Source: a virus
Strand: one strand, 5' to 3'
IMG/VR virus record: IMGVR_UViG_3300049491_000311
Span: 1-35,306 of that record
DNA length: 35,306 nt
Made by a program: the position numbers and the translations under genes. Below, one piece after another: positions 1,322 to 35,183 of the stretch (its first letter is position 1; each line of letters begins with the position of its first letter). Under the pieces are notes generated by a model. It did not search any database, was not told the DNA's origin, and saw only the letters and a program-made list of their open reading frames with translations.

Positions 1322-2005
1322 CTACCGCCTATTAAAATGCTCACCGCAATAAAAATTACCGTTCCCCGTCGTAGCGTTCGACATTGTTCCAGGCTTTCTG
1401 CACCATCCAACGTGGCACTCGTGGCTTGGTATTGGAATAATGTCTTTACCACGCATGGGAAATGATTCGTTTAGCAATTCCTCATGTTCAAGTCTTTTTT
1501 GTTCAAGCCTTATCAGCCGTTCTTTTTTTTGCTGTTCCGTTTCGTGTTCATCCATCCGGTCAAATGCAGTGCCTAACTTTTTTTTAATCTTGTCCATGTT
1601 TTTCCGCGCCACTGATTCGGATATTTCCTTCTTTGGTGGCATTAAAGCAATGCGATCTGCTTCGGCCTGGTTTTTTTCTTGGTTGACCCTTATTTTTAGG
1701 AAAACTAAAGTTGCAGCCACGATTTCAGGTATTTCAGGCAATCGCCCTGGTTTAGTGTCAACTATGCTTTCGTAGCCATCCAGCATATCTTGTGGATGCA
1801 ACCCTTTGGCTTTTGTCCATAGCCTATTTTTCCAGTCCTTCAATTCCTGGTCATTTGTAAACCTGCTTGAATACAACCTTCCAAAATCAGTTTTTAGTTG
1901 TTTTGCTAGTGTTTCAATTGCGTACACCATACTCTGCTTGTAATCCATCTGCCCAGGATGTGTCGTCCCAGTTGAGATTTCCGGTTGTTCGATTAAGTTC
2001 TGCAT
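1322..2005 (-). CDS. Replication protein P-like putative helicase loader
   Basis: 227 residues. ATG 2005 has AGGA 7 bases upstream, but this puts the first 92 bases inside the end of the initiator gene; in-frame Met codons at 1948 and 1930 are shorter options. Residues ~28-105 (LAKQLKTDFGRLY, then KDWKNRLWTKA, then PGRLPEIPEIV) look like the N-terminal domain of phage P-type replication proteins. A Lys/Glu-rich coiled coil follows (~130-180), then a Cys/His cluster, CHVGWC-x14-CGEH, near the C-terminus that probably binds zinc. Its place directly after the O-like gene matches the lambda O-P order. Recruiting the host DnaB helicase is an inference from that position. Confidence 0.65.
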   Translation of the reverse strand: MQNLIEQPEISTGTTHPGQMDYKQSMVYAIETLAKQLKTDFGRLYSSRFTNDQELKDWKNRLWTKAKGLHPQDMLDGYESIVDTKPGRLPEIPEIVAATLVFLKIRVNQEKNQAEADRIALMPPKKEISESVARKNMDKIKKKLGTAFDRMDEHETEQQKKERLIRLEQKRLEHEELLNESFPMRGKDIIPIPSHECHVGWCRKPGTMSNATTGNGNFYCGEHFNRR

Positions 2006-2747
2006 CTGTCATTCCTGCCATTTTTATAAATTTGTCTATGTTTTCCGGTTTTAGGGTGTACTCGATACCGTCAAACCCGTTTTCCTTGTGCCACTTCGAT
2101 TTTTTATGCCCATCAATTGCCAGCTTTGCTTGTATTGGCGTATAACCGCTATCCAGTATTTTTTGTATTAACCTTTTTCTTTTGTCTAGCATTTGCGATT
2201 GAGGATGACCCATCACTGACTTCCAATGCTCAAATATATTTTTGCAGTCAATTCCGTTAAATTCTGATTTTGTTTTTTTGGGCTTACACGTATCTGCGTT
2301 AGCAGATATATATGTTTCTTTACCTTCTTTTAGTTCTTTATCTTCTTTTATCTGGTTGCTCTGTGGTTGCTCTGTGGTTGCTCTGTGGTTGATTAGTGGT
2401 TGATTAGTGGTTGACGTGTCCTGATATTTACTGTAATTACATATAGTTAGTATGGTTATTTTGTGGTTAGATTTTTGTGCGAAATCGCGCGAAATCATTT
2501 CATCTTTTTCTAAGTGATTTAAAAAAGTCCTGAGCGTTTGCCTAGAAATATTCCATTTTTCGGATATGTTTTGTTGCGATAAAATCATCTGGCCTTTTTT
2601 TATAACTACAATATTGCCTCCGACCAATACTTTTGAGTCTTCAAAATTAGCCATCATTAGCAAACGCAACCATCGCTTGAACACTTCGGAATCTTTAAAA
2701 ATCCAATGGTCTTCAATGTCACGGTGTACCTTAATCCAACCTGACAC
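1914..2747 (-). CDS. O-like replication initiation protein (phage replisome organiser type)
   Basis: 277 residues from GTG 2747, with GGAAGG 8 bases upstream; no ATG is available near the N-terminus. The N-terminal ~100 residues (WIKVHRDIEDHWIF, KRWLRLLMMANF, SEKWNISRQTLRTFLNHL, ITILTICNYSKYQ) form the winged-helix domain seen in phage replisome organiser/DnaD-like initiators. A Thr/Gln-rich linker (~110-132) is encoded by the tandem 11-bp repeats. The C-terminal part (KNIFEHWKSVMG onward) resembles the second domain of such proteins. In lambda-type initiators the origin iterons lie inside the gene, and the same design appears here. It precedes the P-like gene and shares an overlap with it. 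Confidence 0.8.
   Translation of the reverse strand: MSGWIKVHRDIEDHWIFKDSEVFKRWLRLLMMANFEDSKVLVGGNIVVIKKGQMILSQQNISEKWNISRQTLRTFLNHLEKDEMISRDFAQKSNHKITILTICNYSKYQDTSTTNQPLINHRATTEQPQSNQIKEDKELKEGKETYISANADTCKPKKTKSEFNGIDCKNIFEHWKSVMGHPQSQMLDKRKRLIQKILDSGYTPIQAKLAIDGHKKSKWHKENGFDGIEYTLKPENIDKFIKMAGMTDAELNRTTGNLNWDDTSWADGLQAEYGVRN
2353..2418. repeat. Six tandem 11-bp iterons, candidate replication origin
   Basis: On the plus strand the unit TGGTTGNNNNN repeats six times without interruption: TGGTTGCTCTG three times, TGGTTGATTAG twice, then TGGTTGACGTG. The array lies in the linker-coding middle of the O-like gene and is flanked by AT-rich DNA (about 2281-2352 on one side, 2419-2480 on the other). 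An 11-bp period is close to one helical turn, so bound proteins would line up on one face. Its position matches lambda-type origins, where the initiator binds iterons inside its own gene. Confidence 0.7.
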
Positions 2748-2750
2748 TAA

Positions 2751-2927
2751 CTAGCCTTCCGACAATATTTCATTGGCGTATTTTTTGCACGCTTGCTTGA
2801 TAAAGCTAGTGCGTGTCCGGTTATCAACGACCCTGGCTTTTTCAACCAAGTCGTTTAGTTTTTTATCAACCCTGGCGCTCAATGCGTAGTCGGATGGCTG
2901 ATCTTGTGTTTTATGTGATGTATTCAT
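2751..2927 (-). CDS. Ribbon-helix-helix DNA-binding protein
   Basis: 58 residues, ATG 2927 to TAG 2753-2751, ending 4 bases before the GTG start of the initiator gene. The pattern ALSARVDKKLNDLVEKARVV, then TRTSFIKQACKKYA, is the short strand plus two helices of an Arc/MetJ-type ribbon-helix-helix dimer. No Shine-Dalgarno is visible upstream (AT-rich: TTTATTAAAAT). A role as a regulator of the replication operon, or as an accessory factor at the iterons, is possible from position only. Confidence 0.75.
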   Translation of the reverse strand: MNTSHKTQDQPSDYALSARVDKKLNDLVEKARVVDNRTRTSFIKQACKKYANEILSEG

Positions 2928-4435: not shown

Positions 4436-5029
4436 ATGAATGAATCACCCAACATTTACCAGCGTATCAACAAAGTGATGCAATCGGTAAAGTACGTCCA
4501 AAAAGACGCAACGGTGCAAGGTTATCGAGCCGTATCACATGACCAAGTGGTGTCTATAGCACGCCATGCGTTGGTGGACAATGGTATTGTAATCTACCCT
4601 GAGCAAGTCGGCGAAAGCCAAGTGTGCGCCATTTTTAAGCCGACGGGCGAAGCCACCAACATTATTCGGTTTGCCGCCAATTACTGTATCAACTTTGTAA
4701 ACATCGACAAGCCTGATGACCGTATTCAGGTGGCTCTTGAAGCCCATGCCAACGACAACGGCGACAAAGCACCGGGAAAGGCTGTCACTTATGCCACCAA
4801 AACCGCGATACTTAAGGTGCTGTGCCTGGAAACTGGCGAAAACGACGAGTCCCGAACTGAGGCTGACAATATCGAAGACGAACTCGAATTGATAGCGAAT
4901 TGCGGATCGCTTGAGGAATTAAAAATAGTATTTTCCAAGTCATTTGAAAAGCACAGGGCAAACACGAAGCTAATGGCACAATTGTCAAAAGCCAAGGACG
5001 ATGCAAAACACAGGATGTCTGTTGGTTAA
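4436..5029 (+). CDS. erf: ERF-family single-strand annealing recombinase
   Basis: 197 residues from ATG 4436. The ERF core is clear: MQSVKYVQKDA near the N-terminus, YRAVSHDQVVSIARHAL (30-46) and the family signature GDKAPGKAVTYATKTAILK (109-127) followed by LETGENDE. ERF proteins form rings that anneal complementary single strands, and in P22 they circularise or recombine phage DNA. The C-terminal 60 residues are a charged helical tail. It is paired in the same arm with an exonuclease and an SSB, giving a complete annealing-recombination set. The stretch 4372-4435 before it holds no gene, and the mRNA leader carries the structured RNA. Confidence 0.9.
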   Translation: MNESPNIYQRINKVMQSVKYVQKDATVQGYRAVSHDQVVSIARHALVDNGIVIYPEQVGESQVCAIFKPTGEATNIIRFAANYCINFVNIDKPDDRIQVALEAHANDNGDKAPGKAVTYATKTAILKVLCLETGENDESRTEADNIEDELELIANCGSLEELKIVFSKSFEKHRANTKLMAQLSKAKDDAKHRMSVG

Positions 5030-5033
5030 ATAT

Positions 5034-5061
5034 TTGTTATGTTAACCAATTACTGTATAAT
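5034..5061 (+). promoter_or_regulatory. Promoter for the Rha-like gene
   Basis: TTGTTA at 5034-5039, a 16-base spacer and a perfect TATAAT at 5056-5061, preceded by TG one base upstream of the usual extended -10 place. The start of RNA would be near 5068, inside the loop of the inverted repeat 5048-5081. Confidence 0.5.
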
Positions 5062-5081
5062 TGTTATTTTTTACAGTAATT
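5048..5081. promoter_or_regulatory. Operator-like 10-bp inverted repeat at the Rha-like promoter
   Basis: AATTACTGTA (5048-5057) and TACAGTAATT (5072-5081) are perfect reverse complements separated by 14 bases. They span the -10 box, the predicted start of RNA and the whole short leader, up to 5 bases before the ATG. A bound regulator would block this internal promoter. The CTG/CAG spacing (18 bases) is not that of a LexA box (10). Confidence 0.5.
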
Positions 5082-5085
5082 ATTT

Positions 5086-5841
5086 ATGAGCGGATTGGTT
5101 GAATTATATAAAGGCAAAGAGCCAATGGTTAAGACATTGGATTTATGGGAACGGTTTGGCTATAAAGAACATCGTGTCTTAAAGCTGGTCATAACAAAAA
5201 ATATGGCTGAATTTGCAGAGCGTGGCGAAATAATAAGTGCAACTACAGTTGCAGGTATTCGCCGGGTAGGGCAACCAGACAAAAGCTATTTATTGAACGA
5301 AAGGCAGTTTAACCTTCTTGTCATGCTGGTAAAAAATACGCCAGAATCAGTAGTGTTCAAGTCGCAGCTCGAAAGGGACTTCCATAGGACAAGGACGGCT
5401 CTGGCAAAAATGCTGTCAATGCGGAAAACAGAAGACTGGCAAGATACCAGAGAGTCAGGAAAAGAAATTTACCATCAAAAAAGCGACATCATAAAGCAGT
5501 TTGTCGATTATGCCACAGCACAAGGCAGCAAGAATGCAATCAGATATTATTCAAATTTAGCCAATATGGAAAACTCGGCATTATTTTTCTTGGAACAAAA
5601 ATTCCCAAATGTAAGGGAATTCCTAAATATCCGCCAATTGATGCAAGTTTCTTTTGCTGACCATGTTATTGATAAGGCCTTGATTGATGGGATGGATAAA
5701 AAACTTGATTACCATGCCATATTTGATCTTGCAAAAGAACGCGTGGTTATCATTTCAAATGCAGTTGGCAAATCGCAAGTAATTTCGCTTCATGAGCAAG
5801 AAGGCTTGATGATCCCAACAAAACTTGAGACTAAAACATGA
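5086..5841 (+). CDS. Rha-like phage regulatory protein
   Basis: 251 residues. The N-terminal ~100 residues (MVKTLDLWERFGYKEHRVL, then KSYLLNERQFNLLVML) have the layout of the Rha/antirepressor N-terminal domain: a short DNA-contacting helix pair followed by a yLLneR-f-lLvm strand. The C-terminal part (KSDIIKQFVDYATAQGSKNA, NMENSALFFLEQ, RQLMQVSFADHVIDKAL) is a second domain often joined to antirepressor modules. Such proteins act in the cytoplasm on phage regulatory circuits. No clear Shine-Dalgarno precedes ATG 5086; Met14 is an alternative start but would remove a conserved first strand. It has its own promoter and palindrome. Confidence 0.7.
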   Translation: MSGLVELYKGKEPMVKTLDLWERFGYKEHRVLKLVITKNMAEFAERGEIISATTVAGIRRVGQPDKSYLLNERQFNLLVMLVKNTPESVVFKSQLERDFHRTRTALAKMLSMRKTEDWQDTRESGKEIYHQKSDIIKQFVDYATAQGSKNAIRYYSNLANMENSALFFLEQKFPNVREFLNIRQLMQVSFADHVIDKALIDGMDKKLDYHAIFDLAKERVVIISNAVGKSQVISLHEQEGLMIPTKLETKT

Positions 5842-6452
5842 TAGAGACCCAAGGAACAGACGCATGGTTTTCAAGCCGATTGGGATGTGTCACGGCTTCC
5901 CGCGTTTCCGACGTAATGGCTAAAACAAAATCCGGCTATTCAGCATCGCGCAATAATTACATGATGCAATTGCTGTGCGAGCGGCTTACCGGAAGGCGCG
6001 AGGAAGTCTTCACCAGCGCGGCAATGCAGCGCGGGATAGACATTGAAACGGTGGCAAGGTCATTGTTTGAGATGAACACTGGGCTTGACGTAAAAGAAGT
6101 GGGCTTTATCCGTCACCATAACGGCTTGGCGGTAGGCGCAAGCCCGGACGGGATAACCTCGGACAACGCCATACTGGAAATTAAATGCCCGAATACAGCA
6201 CAGTACCTGGATTTCTACCTTACCGGGTCTATACCCGTCAATTATGAAATGCAAATGCGGCTGCAAATGGCTTGCGCTGACTTGGACAGGTCTTATTTTG
6301 TCATGTTCGATGACCGCTTGCCGGAAAGGATGCAACTTACTGTTAAAGTTGTTGAGCGCCATTTAGATTTAGAAAAAGAAATGATGGAAGGGATAGTCTT
6401 GTTTCTGGAAGAACTTGACCAATTGTTTATTAAATTACAGGGGAAACAATGA
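5838..6452 (+). CDS. YqaJ/lambda-exonuclease family recombinase nuclease
   Basis: 204 residues, with its ATG overlapping the previous stop (ATGA). It is a PD-(D/E)xK nuclease: an early FSSRLGCVTASRVSDVM segment (substrate-facing helix of YqaJ proteins), GIDIE (66-70), then GASPDG (100-105, metal-binding Asp104) and EIK (Glu114-x-Lys116), followed by YEMQMRLQM. It should degrade 5' ends of double-stranded DNA to leave 3' single strands for the ERF annealase. All expected catalytic residues are present. The next gene (SSB) overlaps by 4 bases, so the nuclease and the single-strand binder are made together. Confidence 0.9.
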   Translation: MIETQGTDAWFSSRLGCVTASRVSDVMAKTKSGYSASRNNYMMQLLCERLTGRREEVFTSAAMQRGIDIETVARSLFEMNTGLDVKEVGFIRHHNGLAVGASPDGITSDNAILEIKCPNTAQYLDFYLTGSIPVNYEMQMRLQMACADLDRSYFVMFDDRLPERMQLTVKVVERHLDLEKEMMEGIVLFLEELDQLFIKLQGKQ

Positions 6453-6817
6453 GCAATGTATTCAGTTTTACTGGGACGGTCGGGCGTGACGCGGAAGTCA
6501 GGTATACGCCATCCGGATTGGCGGTGTTGAGCGTGACGGTCGCCAACAATATCGGCTTTGGCGACAAGCAGCAAACCTTATGGATACGGGTGGCATTGTT
6601 TGGCAAACGCGCCGAAGGCGGCTTGCAAAACTACCTGAAAAAAGGCCAGCATGTGTTTGTATCCGGCGAATTGACCCAAAACGAATACAAAGCCAATGAC
6701 GGCAGTATGAAAACCAGCCTTGAGCTTAACGCCAATGTGGTCGACCTGGTAGGAAAGAAGGCGACGGCAAAACAAAGCGCAGGTAATGACGATATTGACG
6801 ACGACATCCCATTTTGA
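6449..6817 (+). CDS. ssb: Single-stranded DNA-binding protein
   Basis: 122 residues starting MSNVFSFTGTVGRDAEVRYT, followed by the OB-fold strands (SVTVANN, LWIRVALFGKRA, YLKKGQHVFVSGELTQNEY, LELNANVVDLV). It ends in the acidic tip DDIDDDIPF that in bacterial SSBs docks partner proteins. It is shorter than E. coli SSB because the linker is brief. It coats single strands made by the adjacent exonuclease and would be the partner of the NinB-like protein. Its ATG overlaps the exonuclease stop. Confidence 0.95.
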   Translation: MSNVFSFTGTVGRDAEVRYTPSGLAVLSVTVANNIGFGDKQQTLWIRVALFGKRAEGGLQNYLKKGQHVFVSGELTQNEYKANDGSMKTSLELNANVVDLVGKKATAKQSAGNDDIDDDIPF

Positions 6818-12125: not shown

Positions 12126-12683
12126 TTAAATGCCTAGAGCCTTCTTTGCATGTTCGTAATGAGTTATCCGGTCAGCAAGCCCATTATAGCCACCATTGAT
12201 TCGCCTTGTAACCGCCTTAAAGTCGCCTGAGTCCGCCAACTCATTGCAGCCGTGCGTACCCCAGAACCAAGCCGCAGACATCGCCGCATAACGTGCCGAA
12301 GCCAACAGCTCAGGATTGTTTACCGAATCAATTTTCAATGCTTCCCCACACTTTTTGTGGTTGTAAAACCCGGTTATCTGAATCAACCCGTGCCCTCGGA
12401 AAAATTTTCCTGTAGTCGTCCCTTTGGCATGGGCGGCATCCAATGCCTCTTTCTCAAGATTGCCCAAGTCTTTCCTGTTTTCGTAAGCTGACCCGCTCGC
12501 CAGTTCCTCTACATAATGCAGATTGCCGCTTTCATGGGCAATCTGGGCAAGGAACATGGCTTGGCGTTGCTTGGTATTGATGTCAAACTTAGCCATGCCG
12601 TCGTTGATTGACGGCAACATCAATTCCCTGTTCTTATCAGAAGCGTGCGGCATGGCCGCCTTTAATTGTTCCAGTGTAATCAT
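12126..12683 (-). CDS. Endolysin, GH19 chitinase/lysozyme-like
   Basis: 185 residues from ATG 12683 (GGGG upstream). The GH19 fold is recognisable from QAMFLAQIAHESG (Glu51, the expected catalytic acid, with Glu60 a possible second acid) and FRGHGLIQITGFYNH (95-109). The C-terminal NGGYNGLADR matches the conserved substrate-binding loop. There is no signal peptide or SAR sequence, so it must be released by a holin, in agreement with the holin-like genes downstream. It cleaves the glycan strands of peptidoglycan. A single catalytic domain without a cell-wall binding domain is normal for Gram-negative hosts. Confidence 0.92.
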   Translation of the reverse strand: MITLEQLKAAMPHASDKNRELMLPSINDGMAKFDINTKQRQAMFLAQIAHESGNLHYVEELASGSAYENRKDLGNLEKEALDAAHAKGTTTGKFFRGHGLIQITGFYNHKKCGEALKIDSVNNPELLASARYAAMSAAWFWGTHGCNELADSGDFKAVTRRINGGYNGLADRITHYEHAKKALGI

Positions 12684-34549: not shown

Positions 34550-34926
34550 AACCCTAATAAATACTCATTGGTTTTTTGCATTGCCTCAGCCCAGCCACGG
34601 CATACCTCGACCTTGTAACCCTCGGACTCCAGTTGGTCGATGATGCGCTGCTGGTTCATAGACACGCGCCCTGTCTCGGTCTTCATTTCGATAAATAGTC
34701 CGTGCCATTGCCCGTTTGCGCTTGCCACCATGATGTCTGGTATGCCTGCCTTAACCCCTTCTTTTTTCAACAATGCCCCAGTTATGGCTGATCGGTTGCC
34801 TCCATTTGGGATGGCAAACACTAATTTATCCGGGTAAGCGTGCGCCACCCACCTGAAATAATTGGATTGATGCTGGTGTTCCGTTGCTTTCAGCTTTACC
34901 CGGTATTTGGGCTTGGTTTCGGTCAT
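34546..34926 (-). CDS. VRR-NUC domain nuclease
   Basis: 126 residues; ATG 34926 overlaps the previous stop (ATGA). It is a PD-(D/E)xK nuclease of the VRR-NUC type: EHQHQSNYFRWVAHAYP, IPNGGNRSAITGALLKKEG, GIPDIMVA (Asp64), then LFIEMKT (Glu80, Lys82) and a Gln-containing helix (NQQRIIDQLES). All expected active-site residues are present. Stand-alone phage VRR-NUC proteins are thought to act on branched or forked DNA, so it may resolve structures before packaging. Confidence 0.85.
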   Translation of the reverse strand: MTETKPKYRVKLKATEHQHQSNYFRWVAHAYPDKLVFAIPNGGNRSAITGALLKKEGVKAGIPDIMVASANGQWHGLFIEMKTETGRVSMNQQRIIDQLESEGYKVEVCRGWAEAMQKTNEYLLGL

Positions 34927-35183
34927 TTTATTAACAACACTTTTGAACTGCCGCCGCCGTCGCCGTCACCGCCGCCGTCACCGCCGCCTTCGCCTTCGCC
35001 GTCACCGCCGCCTTCGCCTTCGCCGTCGCCGCCGCCTTCGCCTTCGCCGTCGCCGTAGCCGTCGCCGCAGCCGTCGCCGTCACCGCCGCCGTCACCGTCG
35101 CCGTAGCCGTCGCCGCAGCCGTCGCCTTCGCCGTCGCCGTAGCCGTCGCTGCCGTGATGCTTAATCCTCGATAAATTTTTCAT
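34923..35183 (-). CDS. Gly-Asp/Glu repeat protein
   Basis: 86 residues, ATG 35183, with a weak AGAAAG ribosome site. After MKNLSRIKHHGSDGYG comes about 65 residues made almost wholly of Gly with Asp, Glu and a few Tyr/Cys, then SSKVLLIK. It should be a very acidic disordered peptide. Similar GDG/GYG tract proteins starting MK-LSR-K occur in other phages, so the frame is real rather than a shadow. Role unknown (possibly a DNA-mimic-like or solubility element, a guess). It overlaps the VRR-NUC start and the DUF6948-like end. Confidence 0.6.
   Translation of the reverse strand: MKNLSRIKHHGSDGYGDGEGDGCGDGYGDGDGGGDGDGCGDGYGDGEGEGGGDGEGEGGGDGEGEGGGDGGGDGDGGGSSKVLLIK
34953..35150. repeat. CG-rich triplet/hexamer tract
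   Basis: On the plus strand the tract is built from GCC, GTC and TTC triplets in GCCGTC- and GCCTTC-type units with slips. It encodes the Gly-Asp/Glu region of the overlying minus-strand gene. The period of 3 and 6 keeps the frame, and copy number is expected to vary by slippage and to be hard to assemble. Confidence 0.85.

Follow-up and report, generated by a model that had tools for sequence, protein, structure and literature searches.

Why would a phage carry six tandem copies of an 11-bp unit inside the coding sequence of its replication initiator, and is this where replication begins? The question arises from a viral DNA of 35,306 nucleotides (IMG/VR record IMGVR_UViG_3300049491_000311), which was analysed over its whole length and is called the window below. 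A sequence-only reading had proposed that the repeats are a candidate origin within the initiator gene, maintained by selection on the DNA and not on the peptide. Both proposals are strongly supported by a synonymous-codon test and by a survey of the initiator family. The array very probably represents the initiator-binding part of a replication origin, situated inside the initiator's own gene where the linker is encoded.

The initiator

The initiator gene and the two parts of it that concern DNA binding are as follows.

1914..2747, minus strand: replication initiator, DnaD-like/SPP1 G38P-type replisome organizer (277 aa, GTG start at 2747)
2421..2747, minus strand: N-terminal winged-helix domain, residues 1-109, expected to bind the iterons (AlphaFold model)
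2505..2543, minus strand: predicted recognition helix, residues 69-81 (AlphaFold model and covariation)

Judged by its sequence matches, the protein is a winged-helix replisome organizer of the DnaD-like/SPP1 G38P type, with lambda O as a more distant relative. It matches the PHROGs families phrog_2514 (6.4e-35 over residues 1-162) and phrog_186 (1.1e-20), and SPP1 gene 38 is found by tblastn at 5e-15 with 28% identity over 85% of the protein. The match to the lambda-type Phage_rep_O family (PF04492) reaches 15 bits and stays below the Pfam cut-off of 28.7, and the O-like PHROG match is distant (2e-13). The protein had been described earlier as an O-like initiator; it is an initiator indeed, but O-like only in this distant sense. 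Pfam gave no DnaD or DnaB_2 match and only a sub-threshold one to Phg_2220_C, the C-terminal half being of low confidence in the model. No close relative of this phage turned up; searches of viral contigs with single-protein patterns retrieved no relatives of the whole initiator, and the closest winged helices are about 48% identical.

In the AlphaFold model the pLDDT is mostly 89-96 over residues 11-90. The helices of the helix-turn-helix comprise residues 58-64 and 69-81 and are followed by a wing at 85-102 (strands 85-89 and 98-102). The linker (127-166) is modelled with low confidence and the helical C-terminal part is poorly determined. The whole initiator has no sequence match among solved structures, and its profile and fold matches to them are generic winged helices. 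The Foldseek and VIA matches include the chains 4pql and 4pt7, which we take to be RepA_N domains. The RepA_N initiators (pSK41) are similar in that an N-terminal winged helix-turn-helix binds sites in an ori that is central within rep. However, the fold match is weak, at the level of any winged helix, and no sequence relationship is shown. Because the profile and fold matches are generic, we do not use this similarity as evidence of kinship.

The iteron array

2353..2418, minus strand: six tandem 11-bp iterons with the core CAACCA (TGGTTG on the plus strand), one per helical turn

Read along the coding strand (minus) from 2418 down to 2353, the iterons are CACGTCAACCA CTAATCAACCA CTAATCAACCA CAGAGCAACCA CAGAGCAACCA CAGAGCAACCA, without gaps. 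TRF reports a period of 11, 5.5 copies and 94% match for 2353-2413, and the sixth iteron (2408-2418) has kept the TGGTTG core but has a diverged spacer. The lag-11 identity of the array is 91%, whereas in 180 sequences simulated from a Markov model of the whole window no lag between 7 and 23 gave more than 65%, so that the six gapless repeats noticed earlier are confirmed. The spacer had been written as a random NNNNN, which needs correction to three types (CACGT, CTAAT, and CAGAG). The units are not palindromic. A degenerate pair of copies at 2453-2469 is unconvincing as additional iterons, given that equally good matches are present elsewhere in the window. A second, oriR-like array was not found in the 35-kb window, in which other TGGTTG-like pairs are scattered.

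The iterons provide the codons for residues ~111-132 at the start of the linker. Their starts fall into codon phases 2, 1, 0, 2, 1, and 0, which bears out the claim that the reading frame shifts through all three frames. Thus each copy is translated differently, and the resulting peptide, TTNQPLINHRATTEQPQSNQ, is non-repetitive. When the DNA was recoded synonymously with the peptide fixed, none of 20,000 sequences had a lag-11 match as high as that of the array (0.85, compared with a mean of 0.49 and a maximum of 0.74 in the null set). The peptide therefore does not account for the DNA repeat.

The A+T content is 76% in the 29 nucleotides before the array, 52% in the array itself, and 75% in the 55 nucleotides after it, as the AT-rich flanks of the sequence-only reading required; the other main parts of the gene have 60-64%. 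Cumulative GC skew, which had been suggested as a check of the origin, is uninformative because the skew follows gene orientation; it has a local minimum near 4 kb, just where the genes change direction.

Genomic setting

2751..2927, minus strand: 58-aa TacA1-like protein, just upstream of the initiator (PF08681 TacA1, 21.6 bits, cut-off 21)
1322..2005, minus strand: 227-aa gene, downstream of and overlapping the initiator gene (named by position only)

The initiator is set in an ordinary phage replication and recombination region. The TacA1-like protein is probably a ribbon-helix-helix protein and a candidate repressor of the operon; in Vibrio phage F89 an annotated Arc-like repressor precedes the initiator homologue at the same position. 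The product of the overlapping downstream gene is a positional candidate for a helicase loader. It has no detectable homologues in phages, Pfam, NCBIfam, or viral contigs, and its single PHROGs match (13.9 bits, E 0.076) was not taken as meaningful. Further downstream there is a NinB/Orf-like gene at 659-1093. On the other side of the initiator, a row of recombination genes at 4436-6817 of the window encodes an Erf-like annealing protein, a Rha-like regulator (weak), a YqaJ exonuclease, and an SSB. Outside this region, the glycoside hydrolase family 19 protein at 12126-12683 is likely the endolysin, and a low-complexity 6/9-bp repeat with 33 copies of a GCCGTC-like unit (34923-35183, near the contig end) encodes a Gly/Asp-rich protein on the minus strand.

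Comparison with known origins

Origins embedded in initiator genes are already known from SPP1, Tuc2009, and TP901-1. In SPP1, gp38 binds the direct repeats of oriL within gene 38, beside an AT-rich unwinding element (PMC6316719). Both systems combine a homologous winged-helix initiator with tandem 11-bp direct repeats and A+T-rich 9-bp repeats (TRF) in the gene after the winged-helix region. They differ in the unit, which is AGAAACGACAC in SPP1 and has the CAACCA core here, in the second origin, oriR, for which the 35-kb window has no visible counterpart, and in the downstream genes; the initiators share the 28% identity given above. The lactococcal initiators Rep2009 of Tuc2009 and ORF13 of TP901-1 bind direct repeats within their cognate genes, which serve as ori (PMC8965321). 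The likeness to the initiator repeats of the window is drawn from this published description. ORF20 of phage 80alpha is not complementable in trans, suggesting an embedded ori (PMC5499656).

In lambdoid phages, iterons such as TCCCTCAAAACGAGGGA and an AT-rich tract occupy the middle of the initiator gene (PMC7466680). This layout is shared by lambda O with ori-lambda and by gene 43 of Sf6, whose record carries a putative rep_origin at the homologous place. However, the lambda iterons are longer and have inverted halves, compared with 11 bp and no palindrome here, and the initiator of the window does not reach the cut-off of Phage_rep_O.

Arrays across the initiator family

A 19-sequence alignment was too diverse for scanning, and sub-family alignments were used instead. 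About 400 loci were gathered with sub-family profiles of the winged helix, and together with named phage and plasmid loci they were reduced to 170 non-redundant initiators. An array was counted as significant if it surpassed shuffles of the linker's own codons at p <= 0.01. A tandem array directly after the winged helix, in the same linker, is present in 151 of the 170 homologues, with about four to eight copies per array. Of these arrays, 85 have their best lag at 11 or 22, 38 at 12 or 24, 9 at 23, and 13 at 9. The short, fully tandem unit, which the sequence-only reading had emphasised as a difference to lambda-type phages, is thus real but no speciality of this phage, since the commonest period of the family is about 11 bp. 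In two sub-groups (A4 and A5) the spacing of some lineages is 12 bp, or a mixture of 11 and 12 (23 bp), rather than 11. The synonymous-codon null is exceeded by 74 of the 85 11-bp arrays and by 21 of the 38 12-bp arrays; the lower number in the latter is expected because 12 is a multiple of three. The unit sequences vary widely by lineage, for example CAACATCAAAA in PVL, ACAACAAATCA in SA345, and AAAAGACACAG in StB27.

The unit sequence tracks the winged helix and not the C-terminal domain. Array similarity, measured as 5-mer cosine, is 0.09 at less than 40% winged-helix identity and 0.68 at more than 80%. Where the winged helices are similar but the C-termini unrelated (149 pairs), the mean is 0.49, compared with 0.107 in random pairs. 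The reverse situation is found in the Staphylococcus phages PVL and SA345, whose last 100 residues are identical but whose winged helices are only 32% identical and whose iterons differ. Similarly, a copy on a Lactococcus plasmid (L022) shares its C-terminus (97%) with ctekg1 (L016), but not the winged helix and the iterons. The plasmid copy has instead the same winged-helix type and the same GAAACGACA iterons as SPP1. These two cases suggest that winged helix and iterons are naturally exchanged as one cassette. Joint exchange of an N-terminal initiator domain and the origin has been described for plasmid pPR9 (PMC5703833).

With overall identity regressed out, residue 70 is the best predictor of array similarity, and residue 74 covaries with the iteron sequence more weakly. 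After clustering at 70% or 60% identity, residues 58 and 59 join residue 70 as the best correlates. Under the strictest clustering (43 sequences) residues 58 and 59 rank first and second, and position 70 drops to eighth. In the AlphaFold model these three residues are at the starts of the two helices of the helix-turn-helix. The recognition-helix block 67-77 as a whole is not associated with the array (Mann-Whitney p 0.33); only residues 70, 74, and 69 are high within it. This phage and Pseudoalteromonas phage HS2 have winged helices of 36% identity, but both have Q70, R73, and T74 and both have the AACCA core. In initiators of the SPP1 type residue 70 is T, and in those of the DKSKV type it is S. 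Residues 58, 59, and 70 may set the iteron specificity. This is a lead rather than proof, because the correlation includes no full phylogenetic correction and residue 70 leaves the top columns at 43 sequences.

A second motif beside the iterons

2298..2352, minus strand: A+T-rich segment adjoining the iterons, candidate DNA unwinding element (75% A+T)
2313..2348, minus strand: four 9-bp AAAGAANNN units (TTCTTT on the plus strand; TRF 2316-2348)

In the family the A+T content is 0.70 after the array, 0.53 in the array, and 0.60 in the gene, and in 114 of 130 loci the segment exceeds the mean of its own gene. This segment contains more than A and T. An AAGAAT motif is present 3' of the iterons in all sampled sub-families, which was less expected than the array within the initiator gene. 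There are 163 copies after the arrays compared with 46 expected from synonymous recoding, and 249 compared with 85 over the whole linkers, an excess of about threefold. Lys-Asn is encoded as AAGAAT in 176 of 231 cases in the linkers, but in only 37 of 180 in the remaining parts of these genes. Successive AANAAT motifs are spaced by 9 bp in 118 cases, and by 8 and 10 bp in 19 cases each. Examples of AAGAAT/AACAATGAT tracts are found in the homologue linkers of L004 (1906-1937), L012 (phage SA345; 1621-1663), and L013 (1639-1688). The four AAAGAANNN units of this phage are a weaker version of this tract and, taken alone, are not above the synonymous expectation.

The strand opposite AAGAAT reads ATTCTT and offers TnnT pairs. 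On single-stranded oriC DNA, Bacillus DnaD needs two TnnT at variable distance, and cytosines help (PMC10201434). The complement of AAGAAT thus seems to resemble the DnaD recognition element. TnnT occurs at 0.280 per base, compared with 0.255 in the synonymous null and 0.119 elsewhere. As much of this excess follows from the amino acids, the link to DnaD and any function derived from it are offered only as a hypothesis. A reading of the tract as DnaA-trios stays speculative; 73 of the 249 AAGAAT copies are out of frame and a strict 3-nt register is absent.

It could tentatively be imagined, although we would rather doubt it at present, that the origins consist of two separately evolving parts. 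These would be the iterons, set by residues 58, 59, and 70 of the winged helix and exchanged with it as a cassette, and the AAGAAT/TTCTT tract, whose TnnT-rich strand a DnaD-like activity would recognise in single-stranded form, in the manner of the DnaD recognition element in Bacillus oriC.

Function of the array and alternative explanations

If the array acts as the initiator-binding part of the origin, the N-terminal winged helix would bind each CAACCA-centred 11-bp unit, so that the molecules line up on a single face of the DNA, one per turn. Toward the 3' side of the gene, the nucleoprotein complex would strain the adjacent A+T-rich segment and open it, and the helicase loader and the helicase would be brought in by the C-terminal part of the initiator. 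Since the unit is not a multiple of three, the array would be kept by selection on the DNA and the peptide linker would be tolerant. We infer the binding step from homology and covariation, and the melting and the start of replication by homology to SPP1, Tuc2009, TP901-1, and 80alpha.

Tandem repeats are prone to slippage and linkers tolerate changes in length, and the identical neighbouring copies (three with CAGAG, two with CTAAT) suggest recent duplication. The array could in principle have arisen from replication slippage that the linker tolerated, and have no function as DNA. However, slippage would not be expected to produce, in 151 of the 170 homologues, arrays that share their position and resemble each other in length and period but differ in their units, nor does it predict that the unit follows the winged helix independently of the C-terminus, and we consider it extremely unlikely. 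It is just as hard to imagine that selection acts on a repetitive, Thr/Asn/Gln-rich linker peptide instead of the DNA. The linkers of relatives are also rich in these residues, and the 12-bp arrays of some lineages keep the frame, with only the 21 of 38 mentioned above exceeding the synonymous null. The 11-bp units, however, shift the frame with every copy, so that the encoded peptide is non-repetitive, and neither the 20,000 recodings without a match nor the 74 of 85 11-bp arrays above the null agree with such selection.

The repeats might also bind the initiator but mainly serve as an autoregulatory or fork-arrest site and not as the start of replication. With initiator bound to the array, transcription through the first replication gene would be blocked as well, and a fork-stalling role has been proposed for oriR, the second gp38-bound site of SPP1. 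However, the 35-kb window has only one array, and the adjoining A+T-rich stretch and the position in the gene fit origins of the oriL type. This explanation is therefore improbable, and the initiator-binding part of an origin is the reading that we prefer.

Implications

The probable replication start of this phage and its initiator are located to the base pair. Although the layout of an origin within the initiator gene is not new, specialists might be interested in the rule of about 11 bp, the apparent cassette of winged helix and iterons, the candidate specificity residues, and the shared second motif, all of them drawn from sequence comparison. The family lends itself to testing how an initiator and its origin remain matched. 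The origin and the DNA-binding domain that it needs are copied together, the unit sequence seems to change with only a few residues of the protein, and the natural domain swaps are ready-made controls. That codon usage favours a shared second motif in the unwinding region is a hint that these origins contain more information than an A+T-rich stretch would. If the two-part reading were true, origin specificity would be predictable from sequence, and phage origins would gain a strand-specific loading signal.
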